A stretch of 40,935 nt of DNA from Methanobacteriota archaeon (GCA_002722695.1 PBMS01000037.1:1-40935); one strand, 5' to 3'; shown: positions 6,885 to 11,289, numbered from the stretch's first letter. Notes: generated from the letters alone by a model not told the origin. Made by a program: numbers and translations.

Positions 6885-8834
6885 ATGGTCATAATTGAAC
6901 ACGGCGACTTGATTGAGCAACGACGCGGCGGCGTTGATGTTCTCCGTGTTTTGGTGCGCAATTTAGCCGTACACGAGCAGTCCGGTGCGGTGTTGATTCG
7001 CTCGCCGGAGGATGAGGATTCAAGGGGATGGCTCCTCTTCCGCCTCGGTCAACCGGTGATGGCTTTCCACGCAGGAGGGGAAGGACGCATGGGCTTGGAG
7101 GCGTTGTTGTCCATTGAACACGACGCTTTGGCGGTCGAAAATGAACTCTTGCTGTATGAGCTGACCATGAACGCCTTGCGAGCCACCATGAGCCAACACC
7201 CCTCCAGTGTTCTTCATCTCGAGCACCAAGAGCAGCAACAAGGAAGCGAGACTTGGTGGTCCAGCGTCCGTTTACCGTCCTCGTCCTGGCGCCGTGCGGC
7301 GCGATTGGAGGACATCGAAGCGATGGCGCTCGAGACCGAGGAACGTCAGCGCACCAGACCCGAAAACAACGGCGACCGGACGGTCCTCGAGCCCGGATGC
7401 GTCTATCTCCTCGATTCACCCGACCCCCATCCAATGATTCAACTGGGCGTTGAACTCGCTGAGCGAGGCATGCCGTTGCTGGGTCTGTTCGGTCTTCCGC
7501 ACGCCGAGACCGAACATACATCTCGGCTTCCAGACCCGCAGTGCTACGCTTTACTCTCTCCCCATGGCGGCTACACCCTCTTGGATGAACGTTCGTCGAT
7601 GGAGGCCGTCGTCAACGTCTTTCAGTGGGGCAACGAGCGCTCTGTGATTCTTCTCGACGGACTTGACCGCATCGGGAACGCCTTTGGCGAGGGGTCGATG
7701 ATCGACGTTGTGCGTTCGGTTTGCGACGGCGTGCGTTTCAACGATCACGTGGCGCTCATCACCACGGATCTCGAACTTTTCGAGACGGCGATCCAACGAC
7801 GTCTCTTGGCTGAGGCAACCCCGCTTCGCTTGCGAGTGGTTGAGGCGTGGAATCATGAACCGGACGCCCTTTGGGACCACCCCGTTTTGCTGGCTCCCGA
7901 CGAGGAAGAGGAGCAATGGCTTGCTGCGCAAATTCAACATCAAGGATCGAAGGTGGGCGCACCCAGTTCCGTGCACCAGAACGTGGTTGAGGGAGGGAGC
8001 TACGAACCCGACGAAGAGGAACGTGCCCAAGCCGTCCAAGCGCTTACGGACGTGGTTGAGGCCTGGCCGAACGAAGACCCGATTCAAGAGCGAACCCCTG
8101 CGGCCAGTCCATCGCCGGTTTCGGTGGGTGAACAGGCTTGGCGTCCACAACACTCCCAACCTGTGAACGAGGGTCGATACGTCAGCGATTCCCCTCGAGC
8201 TCCACCGGAGGACCTCGCTGGACCGCAGCCCTACCCTCGCATGAGGGTCGCTCAAAAACGGAAGGCAACACCCAATGCCCCGCCACAACTGCGATCGCCT
8301 CAACGCATGCCTCGGCGTAAACCAGAGGCCTCGCTTCCCACCATTGCACCGGGTCTTACGCCTGCGCGCTCAGCAGCCGTCACCGAAAGCGCTCCAGAGT
8401 TGCCCAATTGGCCCACGCCGCCCACCACCAAACAGTCTTATCGAAAAGAAAACATGGACGTGTTTGTCCAGAAGCAGGCCATCGCTGAAGAGCGGCACAG
8501 CGTCGTTCAAACACCCGTACAGACCAAGGCCCTCAAGGACAGCGCAGCCAGTTCTCCAAATTTGGACAACATCGCCTTGCCCGAACCCATCGTTCCGCAA
8601 ACCGTGAACCTCCCTTCGACTTCAACCGACGAGCCGTTGACGAGCAGTCTTCGGCCGGTCGCGACAACCTCCAAACCCGCCCGTGAAGCATCGGCCAAGG
8701 ACCAACGAAGCTTGGACATGGAGGACATTTACGAGCGTTGGACGACGTTTGACGATCTGGAAGACATGGACACTACGGCGTTGTACAACGATCACGGAGA
8801 GGCTCTTGAGCGATACAAAGGTGATCAGCAGTGA
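6885..8834 (+). CDS. DUF835-domain protein with long disordered C-terminal region
   Basis: A 649-residue, apparently cytoplasmic protein. Residues 15-95 form a small alpha/beta domain (segments GAVLIRSPED and GWLLFRLGQPV) of unassigned family. Residues 168-316 match DUF835, an archaeal domain with a degenerate RecA/KaiC-like look: it opens with LEPGCVYLL, then an alternating strand/helix pattern and the VILLDGLDRIGNAFG hallmark at 254-268, a Walker B-like strand. No Walker A motif is present. Residues 360-610 are rich in Pro, Ser, Arg and Gln and look disordered; a final acidic helix follows. The stop overlaps the GTG start of the DnaA-like gene (GTGA), so the two are translationally coupled. 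A TGCAAAAG stretch 31 nt upstream is a weak promoter candidate. DUF835 proteins are often linked to signalling in archaea; the role here is unknown. Confidence 0.75.
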   Translation: MVIIEHGDLIEQRRGGVDVLRVLVRNLAVHEQSGAVLIRSPEDEDSRGWLLFRLGQPVMAFHAGGEGRMGLEALLSIEHDALAVENELLLYELTMNALRATMSQHPSSVLHLEHQEQQQGSETWWSSVRLPSSSWRRAARLEDIEAMALETEERQRTRPENNGDRTVLEPGCVYLLDSPDPHPMIQLGVELAERGMPLLGLFGLPHAETEHTSRLPDPQCYALLSPHGGYTLLDERSSMEAVVNVFQWGNERSVILLDGLDRIGNAFGEGSMIDVVRSVCDGVRFNDHVALITTDLELFETAIQRRLLAEATPLRLRVVEAWNHEPDALWDHPVLLAPDEEEEQWLAAQIQHQGSKVGAPSSVHQNVVEGGSYEPDEEERAQAVQALTDVVEAWPNEDPIQERTPAASPSPVSVGEQAWRPQHSQPVNEGRYVSDSPRAPPEDLAGPQPYPRMRVAQKRKATPNAPPQLRSPQRMPRRKPEASLPTIAPGLTPARSAAVTESAPELPNWPTPPTTKQSYRKENMDVFVQKQAIAEERHSVVQTPVQTKALKDSAASSPNLDNIALPEPIVPQTVNLPSTSTDEPLTSSLRPVATTSKPAREASAKDQRSLDMEDIYERWTTFDDLEDMDTTALYNDHGEALERYKGDQQ

Positions 8835-10816
8835 CGGCGTTGCCGACCAAACTCCGCTCTGAGTTGGAAGATGCCAAGCGCCACCTGCGGTCGGCCGTTG
8901 TCACCGCCAGCACATCACCACCACCCGCGCCAGTCGGCGAATCAACAGCGTCCAATCAGCGTCCAGCGAAGTCCAAACTGAACACGCTGCTGGGCACCAA
9001 GGTCGTCCCGGACCGGTCTCTTGCGTTGTTTCAGACGGTGGGCGTCTCCCAGCGTCCCACATACGACCTCATCGCCGAACGCGTTCTCGGCCCGCAGGTG
9101 GGCGAACACACCTCGTTTTTGGAGGCCGAGGCAAATTACGCCAGCCACGTCGCAAAGCGACTGGTTGAACTTCGGCGTCGTATGGAACAACCACCGGTGT
9201 CTCCAAGCGACGGCGAGGGGTTTTACGTTGGTGTTGAGGACGACGGAACGCCGGTTTGGAGCCAAGTGCTCAGCGAGCAACGGGGCCGGACATCCAACAA
9301 ACTCGGTCAGGAATTGGCTCCACCCGTCGTGGGGGAGCTCCACCACCCAGCTCGAGTGTTGAACCTCGAAGCCGCATGGCCCAAGCGCATGGGGTGGTCC
9401 ACCTCCTCGACGTTCAAGCAGTGGTTTGTCACGGACGAGAACATGCAGGCCACGCGATGTTGTGAACACGTGATCGACCACCCGGGCGGTGCATTCAATC
9501 CTCTCTTCATTTGTTCCGCCCCGCAAGCGGGCTGTTCCCATCTTATCCACGCAACCGGCCAGGCGCTCCTGCGCCGCGAAGAGGGTCATGTGCTGCACAT
9601 TTCCGCTGCCGATGCGGCCTTGGTGGACGCTCATGACACCGCGTGGCAGGACGCATTGCCGGGTGCGAGCGCTTTGCTGGTCGACGACGTGCACGTGTTT
9701 GCAGACGACGATTCATGGAGTCACCAACTTGGCGTGCTGGTGGACCACGCTTTGAACCACGGCGTTCAGGTTGTGGTCGGCGGACGCCATGCGCTCGACG
9801 CCTTCCCTCCCTCAAGGCTCAGCGACGTGCTCCGAGGGTCAACTCAAACCCGTCTGGACGCCCCCCAGTCAGCGTCTTTACTGGCGTTTGGACGGTGGCG
9901 TTGCACGCAAAAAAACATCCTCGTTTCCGACCGTCACCTCGCCCAACTCAGCCGCATGGAACCGGCGGGTTGGCGTGCCATGGAAAGCCGTCTTGAACGT
10001 CTTTCCCTCGCTTTTGAAGGTGGAGCCGTTTTACTGGACGGCGACGATGTTTCGGACCTTCTCGACGGGCACGTGTCCAAAAGCAGAGCAGATGAGCGGC
10101 AGCGCGTCGACGACCTTGCCTCACAGCTCGTTGGCAATGCACTTGACGCCGTCTATTCCTCCGCCACACCGGGCGGCGTGGACCTCCACAGCCCGTTGGA
10201 GTCGTGGGGTGAGGACGACTACACGCCTCCGGAATGGGATGCTGAGCGACTCGGCAGCGATGCAACGATGCTTGAGCAACGCCTCAGGGCCGAGGTGGAC
10301 ACCCTTGAACCCGGCCGCCCGTCCGTGCTCGACGTTCACGAGCGCGAGAACTTCATCGTGCGGGCCAACGACCCGCTCAATCGTGACGATGTGGAACGCG
10401 CCGTCGAGGTTCTGGTGGACATCGACGCCAGCGTCGATGCCCGTGTCAACGCCATGTCCTCAGAAGTGGTCGCGTCCTCTCTTGAACTCCAGAGCTTGGA
10501 GGAGCGCATGGTGGCCTTGGCTCAGCGCGCCGTGGATGCGGACATCGAGGAACTCATCCTCATCGCCGATGAGTTGCGAGTCATCGAAGAACGCCTTGTT
10601 GAAATCGATCCGGACCGTAAGCCTCTGCCGCCGTTTGACGATGAAGCAATCTCCGATGAATCGCACGACCTCGATACCTACGAACCTGAGGGGGAGTGGA
10701 ACATCGATGGAACCGACGTGGATCCCGAAGACTTGCTTGTCCAACCGCCTCAAAAAACGGTGGTTCACCTCTCCCGAATTCGCCCACGCAGTGTCTTGGT
10801 GGGTGAGGAAGAGTGA
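8831..10816 (+). CDS. DnaA-like AAA+ domain protein with degenerate Walker A motif
   Basis: A 661-residue protein. Residues 195-411 align by eye with domain III of bacterial DnaA/Hda: the HPGGAFNPLF segment at 217-226 corresponds to NPGGAYNPLF, and ALLVDDVHVFA at 281-291 to the DnaA Walker B segment ALLIDDIQFFA. The P-loop is broken: the invariant Lys is Cys235 (GCSH instead of GKTH) and the glycines before Gly234 are replaced. Walker B Asp285-Asp286 are intact. The box VII arginine finger aligns with a Val near 333, while a sensor 2-like Arg382 is kept. The DnaA DNA-binding domain IV is absent. Instead there is an acidic C-terminal region with a helical or coiled-coil segment near 515-595. 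The GTG start overlaps the upstream stop, and the stop overlaps the next GTG. It could be an adaptor or regulator rather than an initiator; the homology needs a profile search. Confidence 0.72.
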   Translation: MTALPTKLRSELEDAKRHLRSAVVTASTSPPPAPVGESTASNQRPAKSKLNTLLGTKVVPDRSLALFQTVGVSQRPTYDLIAERVLGPQVGEHTSFLEAEANYASHVAKRLVELRRRMEQPPVSPSDGEGFYVGVEDDGTPVWSQVLSEQRGRTSNKLGQELAPPVVGELHHPARVLNLEAAWPKRMGWSTSSTFKQWFVTDENMQATRCCEHVIDHPGGAFNPLFICSAPQAGCSHLIHATGQALLRREEGHVLHISAADAALVDAHDTAWQDALPGASALLVDDVHVFADDDSWSHQLGVLVDHALNHGVQVVVGGRHALDAFPPSRLSDVLRGSTQTRLDAPQSASLLAFGRWRCTQKNILVSDRHLAQLSRMEPAGWRAMESRLERLSLAFEGGAVLLDGDDVSDLLDGHVSKSRADERQRVDDLASQLVGNALDAVYSSATPGGVDLHSPLESWGEDDYTPPEWDAERLGSDATMLEQRLRAEVDTLEPGRPSVLDVHERENFIVRANDPLNRDDVERAVEVLVDIDASVDARVNAMSSEVVASSLELQSLEERMVALAQRAVDADIEELILIADELRVIEERLVEIDPDRKPLPPFDDEAISDESHDLDTYEPEGEWNIDGTDVDPEDLLVQPPQKTVVHLSRIRPRSVLVGEEE

Positions 10817-11289
10817 GGGCGCCTTGGTGGATGGAAGGTGTTCATTTTTCCTGTCAGAGCAACTGCGGAAAATGCTGCGACCAACCCGGTGGTATCGTTT
10901 ACTTGTCGCCCGATGACGCCAGTCGGCTTGCCGACCATGCTGAATTGTCGGTCGAGGATTGGCTCGAGCGTGACACTCGACGAACCTACGACGGGCGATA
11001 CGTCCTGAAAAGCCGGGAAGTGGACGGAGTCTGCATTCATCTCAACGAACGTCAACAATGCACGGTGTACGAAGTTCGTCCGGCACAGTGTCGAGCGTTC
11101 CCGTGGTGGGGCGAGAATCTTGCCACCCTTTCGGCTTGGAAGAGCGTGAAAGCAGCGTGCCCCGGCATCGATGCAGAGGATGCGCTGCTCATCGATGGAC
11201 AGACCATCCGATTGAACATTTTTGCTGACAGGACGTCCACCAAAGGCTTCCGAACGTGGCCTCCGTCAGATTATCGCATAAAACGATAG
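10813..11289 (+). CDS. YkgJ-family cysteine cluster protein
   Basis: A 158-residue protein of the YkgJ/UPF0153 zinc- or iron-chelating family. The N-terminal cluster is Cys14, Cys18, Cys21 and Cys22 (CQSNCGKCC). Later cysteines lie in a GVCIHL segment and in the VRPAQCRAFP signature, where the family pattern is C...Y..RP..CR.FP. The metal and the reaction are not established for most members; some are associated with protein modification or metal handling. The GTG start overlaps the upstream stop by four bases (GTGA). The gene is thus the third member of a tightly coupled DUF835 - DnaA-like - YkgJ cluster, and their products may work together. Confidence 0.85.
   Translation: MRAPWWMEGVHFSCQSNCGKCCDQPGGIVYLSPDDASRLADHAELSVEDWLERDTRRTYDGRYVLKSREVDGVCIHLNERQQCTVYEVRPAQCRAFPWWGENLATLSAWKSVKAACPGIDAEDALLIDGQTIRLNIFADRTSTKGFRTWPPSDYRIKR

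Follow-up and report, generated by a model that had tools for sequence, protein, structure and literature searches.

A DnaA-type AAA+ protein without Walker A lysine or domain IV, paired with a DUF835 protein in a genus of Thermoplasmatota

A 40,935-nucleotide stretch of DNA from a Methanobacteriota archaeon (GCA_002722695.1 PBMS01000037.1; hereafter the window) contains a gene whose product, P1, resembles DnaA, and the locus raises the question of what such a protein does in an archaeon. DnaA is regarded as the bacterial replication initiator, and archaea normally use Orc1/Cdc6 instead. The source genome is about 71% complete and comes from an order that the initial annotation places among the marine Poseidoniales. 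It contains two Orc1/Cdc6 genes, and one or two were also found in each of the 20 relatives tested, in keeping with the earlier suggestion that P1 has a role other than replication initiation. PADLOC gives no match, on which ground a defence system was rejected, and a PHROGs search gave nothing of note. The features of the locus are listed in Table 1.

Table 1. Features of the P1 locus, in window coordinates.
Feature	Position	Strand	Basis
Divergent membrane protein without Pfam match, predicted to have one or two TM helices	5705..6361	-	
P2; N-domain (1-113) and inactive-KaiC-like DUF835 domain (about 165-340), with a long disordered tail	6885..8834	+	
P1; DnaA-like AAA+ protein, 661 aa, GTG start	8831..10816	+	ORF, Pfam, NCBIfam, predicted fold
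P1 residues 190-412; AAA+ core of the DnaA domain III type	9398..10066	+	Profile match, predicted fold, motifs
P1 residues 413-661; acidic region with long predicted helices at the C-terminus, replacing domain IV	10067..10813	+	
Protein with a CxxCxxCC metal-chelating domain; overlaps P1 by 4 nt, absent from the block where P1/P2 are missing	10813..11289	+	

The DnaA-type AAA+ core of P1

Residues 190-412 of P1 are a DnaA-type AAA+ domain, by both sequence and fold. Pfam model PF00308 (Bac_DnaA) matches residues 193-317 with 41.2 bits (cut-off 23), and the top NCBIfam models are those of DnaA (TIGR00362, residues 186-394, E 1.8e-14) and Hda (TIGR03420, E 9e-9), although their scores of 53.6 and 35.2 bits do not reach the respective equivalog cut-offs of 343.9 and 194.8. 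An AlphaFold model built on a 44-row alignment has pLDDT values >90 in most blocks of residues 190-400, and the best 19 matches to it in the PDB (Foldseek) are all DnaA or Hda. The top match is domain III of Bacillus subtilis DnaA (8bv3; E 4.2e-14, target TM score 0.82), and the Hda structure 3bos matches with E 6e-11. The profile and fold matches agree that the family call is right, and the assignment of residues 195-411 to a domain III-like module, made by eye in the initial annotation, is thus borne out.

The DNA-binding domain IV is missing, as had been noted from the sequence. A domain IV profile built from 78 bacterial DnaA sequences finds no match at E<=10 among 110 archaeal entries, in which some genes occur more than once, and the same profile matches all three bacterial DnaA controls with E values of about 1e-30 or better. 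The C-terminal region that takes its place is acidic and partly helical, also as described earlier, with 62 D+E and 23 K+R, a pI of 4.2, and long helices predicted by AlphaFold at residues 518-568 and 572-592. Between beta 2 and Walker B, at the site of the initiator-specific motif in bacterial DnaA, the chain is mostly shorter by 5-8 residues, with 24-26 residues in the order (29 in two rows) versus 31-32 in nine of ten other Thermoplasmatota homologues.

Stepwise loss of the catalytic motifs

The Walker A motif of P1 reads SAPQAGC(235)SHL, with Cys235 where lysine is expected, and the box VII arginine position is occupied by Val333. The functional Walker A lysine and arginine finger by which a DnaA initiator is recognised are therefore both absent, and the initial annotation had read both positions correctly. 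The sensor 1 position is Gly317; this loss and the shortened beta 2–Walker B stretch had been overlooked. Walker B (Asp285 and Asp286) is retained, as is the sensor 2 Arg382 recognised earlier.

These positions were surveyed in an alignment of 55 P1 sequences from the order, 25 of them from the source genus, alongside the ten homologues from elsewhere in Thermoplasmatota. None of the 55 has the box VII arginine, which 9/10 of the others have. The Walker A lysine is kept in 20/55, comprising all sampled members of family f2 and some genera of family f1, and is arginine in a further 10/55; in all 25 sequences of the source genus, which form one supported clade in the tree, it is C, I, T or G. 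Sister genera of the source genus have either arginine or an intact GKS/GKT at the P-loop, and in several the conservative change to arginine is accompanied by a mostly intact sensor 1. Sensor 1 is Thr/Ser in 20/20 of the lysine-bearing group and Gly/Ala in 25/25 of the source genus. Since the arginine is gone throughout the order and the lysine and sensor 1 only throughout the genus, the arginine finger was lost first; both this loss and that of domain IV predate the loss of the P-loop.

The AAA+ domain is under strong purifying selection in the genus without a P-loop, with dN/dS of 0.02-0.12, similar to the values in lysine-bearing lineages. As these values are far below 1, P1 is conserved and not decaying. 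The initial annotation had considered that close relatives with an intact GKT would make the change a local mutation. Such relatives do exist, with GKS or GKT, but the loss affects all 25 species of the genus under strong purifying selection, so that both local mutation and decay are ruled out. The dead P-loop is thus a property of the genus, whereas Cys235 itself, whose conservation had also been raised, varies.

The losses of arginine finger, P-loop lysine and sensor 1 make a nucleotide-independent scaffold the most likely form of P1. We regard as rather unlikely the alternative that P1 binds but hardly hydrolyses nucleotide and serves, in a complex with P2, as a switch that senses ATP or ADP. 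Some AAA+ domains without a P-loop lysine may still bind nucleotide, and Gly234, Ser236, Asp285 and Asp286 are invariant in the genus and Arg382 is present in 19/25; the substitution pattern of the sister genera would also suit a switch. However, in the source genus the lysine varies freely and the sensor 1 Thr/Ser is always lost, and the box VII arginine is missing from the whole order.

The DUF835 partner and its distribution

The gene for P2, a context that had been overlooked, lies directly upstream of P1 and its 3′ end overlaps P1 by 4 nt. Given a similar overlap between P1 and the CxxCxxCC gene, the three genes are likely to form one operon. A P2 orthologue is located directly upstream of P1 in all 21 fully read loci, and Pfam detects DUF835 (PF05763) in 18 of the 21 orthologues (best E 2.6e-19); DUF835 is also recognised in the source genome (E 3.4e-6). 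The DUF835 call for P2 rests on its orthologues and on profile comparison because P2 itself has no Pfam match at E<=1. Its DUF835 region is modelled as a RecA/KaiC-like fold, with Foldseek E values of only about 1e-3. A PATAN/DUF4388 label for the N-domain, based on likeness by eye, was rejected, with no such Pfam match in the 21 orthologues at E<=1. DUF835 has been described as an inactivated KaiC-like domain (iKaiC) of archaeal response regulators in Methanomicrobia and Thermoplasmata (PMC5847659).

Outside the order, the two proteins correspond to single chains. An N-domain, DnaA-type AAA+ module and DUF835 are found in one chain in families f8, f18, f37 and f38, and AAA+ plus DUF835 in f24; the DnaA-DUF835 fusion of a named Methanomassiliicoccales MAG matches query residues 26-660. 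Comparison of fusion and pair by hhalign gives 98.5% (E 2.4e-15) for the N-domain, 99.5% (E 4.5e-22) for the AAA+ segment and 99.0% (E 2.9e-18) for DUF835, and at the level of sequence profiles these three separate homologous segments tie P1 and P2 to the single-chain relatives. The genes for DnaA, a KaiC ATPase and DUF835 are consecutive in f20, the DnaA and DUF835 genes adjoin one another in f33, and in f8 and f18 the fusion gene is followed by one for a RecA/KaiC-type ATPase. DnaA modules of f11 and f28 have no neighbouring DUF835. A tree of archaeal and bacterial DnaA modules is poorly resolved, with intermixed rows and a very long branch to the source order.

Some DnaA modules belong to much larger proteins. 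Coiled-coil proteins of 1200-1400 aa in f11 (L176 and L187) and f33 (L172) carry the AAA+ module near the C-terminus, and in a related f11 locus (L053) zinc ribbons follow it.

P1 orthologues are present in 180/293 genomes of the order (three of the 180 being mis-binned bacterial DnaA). The occurrence of P2 and of the divergent membrane protein largely matches that of P1, and so does that of a second, stand-alone DUF835 protein encoded elsewhere in the genome. Genomes without the pair keep the flanking genes, from between which P2, P1, the CxxCxxCC gene and the membrane protein gene have gone. Strong KaiC matches (E below 1e-40; 60 genomes sampled) are found in 36 genomes of pair-bearing genera and in 0/24 of the others. 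The genera without the pair form one clade, which rules out many independent joint losses; the loss of the pair together with KaiC therefore counts as a single event. In one genome (G035) P1 was not found and P2 was partly found, and in another (G030) KaiC and the stand-alone DUF835 protein are present and P1 was not found. Weak P1 matches in three genomes of the pair-less clade are not exceptions but bacterial DnaA with domain IV on mis-binned contigs (G289:C42, G091:C23 and G264:C16; L229:6283-7734, L230:3093-4466 and L231:5017-6453).

The stand-alone DUF835 gene (L228:6014-6886 on source-genome contig C18; also L186, L235 and L236) is divergent from a gene for an EF-hand and zinc-ribbon protein, and in the source genome it adjoins an aromatic amino acid lyase gene. 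The KaiC gene (G000:C5:4392-5084) lies in a conserved cluster (G000:C5:4077-6536, L226; also L232, L233 and L234) with a lamin-tail-domain protein gene and two degenerate KaiC-like genes.

The conserved pairing and the fusions point to KaiC-type signalling and do not support the earlier idea of a decoy, in the sense of a lone mimic of DnaA or a replication protein, as P1 is one half of a conserved DUF835 pair whose homologues are fused. They also weigh against an adaptor, similar to Hda or DnaC, with a regulatory role in DNA replication or towards the Orc1/Cdc6 initiators. The AAA+ core is nearest to DnaA and Hda in sequence and predicted fold, and Hda is likewise of DnaA type without domain IV; however, the partner and fusions indicate DUF835/KaiC, an entire clade replicates without P1, and Hda targets DnaA, whereas P1 is the only DnaA-type match found in the source genome. 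We consider such an adaptor improbable.

Even less probable is a regulator of the archaellum, which as a dedicated role is largely refuted. FlaH, a member of the KaiC family, is an archaellum component, and archaellin and P1/P2 co-occur in most f1 genera and in genera g15 and g19. However, P1/P2 and KaiC occur without archaellin in g17, and archaellin and a FlaH-like match occur without P1/P2 or strong KaiC in g14 and g21. As strong KaiC tracks P1/P2 and the archaellin distribution is mismatched to them, the link, which counts as a single evolutionary event, is to KaiC-type signalling and not to motility. The idea that P1 is a decaying gene, a mis-binned bacterial DnaA or a sequencing artefact can be dismissed, since the three mis-binned contigs that might favour it are set against the wide occurrence of orthologues, a conserved neighbourhood and dN/dS far below 1.

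A proposed scaffold role and known systems

The best explanation, to which we give roughly even credence, is that P1 serves as a scaffold in a KaiC-type signalling complex and does so independently of nucleotide. Its constant position beside a signalling-type gene makes this likelier than a role in starting replication. The ancestor may have been a DnaA-type AAA+ ATPase working outside replication, in a KaiC/DUF835 signalling assembly of Thermoplasmatota. In the single-chain relatives, an AAA+ module with all catalytic motifs lies between the N-domain and the inactive KaiC-like DUF835, and it would probably oligomerise with ATP and pass its state to DUF835/KaiC partners. In the source order this protein appears to have been divided between two genes that are neighbours and in most cases overlap, with P2 receiving the N-domain and DUF835, and P1 the DnaA module and the helical acidic tail. 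The arginine finger would then have been lost across the order, and the P-loop lysine and sensor 1 additionally in the source genus. P1, presumably devoid of ATPase activity, would hold P2 in a physical complex and link it to KaiC ATPases through its conserved AAA+ surface and C-terminal helices, with a putative signalling output. Against this scaffold reading, the P1 and KaiC genes are non-adjacent in the order, P1 was not found in G030 despite its KaiC and stand-alone DUF835 protein, Walker B and the sensor 2 arginine are retained, and the joint loss of the pair and KaiC, a single event in a lineage with smaller genomes, may be a coincidence.

A broader and more tentative reading, possible but with less than even support, is that a DnaA-type AAA+ domain was recruited from replication as a motor for KaiC/DUF835 proteins and has here become a dead scaffold by stepwise catalytic loss within one order. 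If so, a DnaA-type engine without domain IV has been reused for signalling in archaea, and the poorly known DUF835/iKaiC network gains a concrete, testable partner. Judged by motifs, abundant archaea also offer a natural series of one protein in ATPase-intact, arginine-substituted and dead forms.

P1 shares with domain III of bacterial DnaA the AAA+ core fold, the NPLF motif, Walker B and the sensor 2 position. It differs in lacking domain IV, the Walker A lysine, the box VII arginine and sensor 1, in its shorter initiator-specific region, and in having a DUF835 protein as its partner. Hda is also a DnaA-type AAA+ protein without domain IV, but its nucleotide site is intact and its target is DnaA, whereas P1 is a protein of 661 aa with additional N- and C-terminal regions in an archaeal host without a DnaA initiator. 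The P2 orthologues match the DUF835 signalling proteins of archaea, with the difference that the domain here has a DnaA-type AAA+ module as its partner or in the same chain, a pairing on which no paper was found in the open-licence literature. AAA+ proteins of SSV-type archaeal viruses (arCOG07960) have also been termed DnaA-like (PMC4158269); going by their description, these are virus-associated, whereas P1 lies in a conserved chromosomal neighbourhood.
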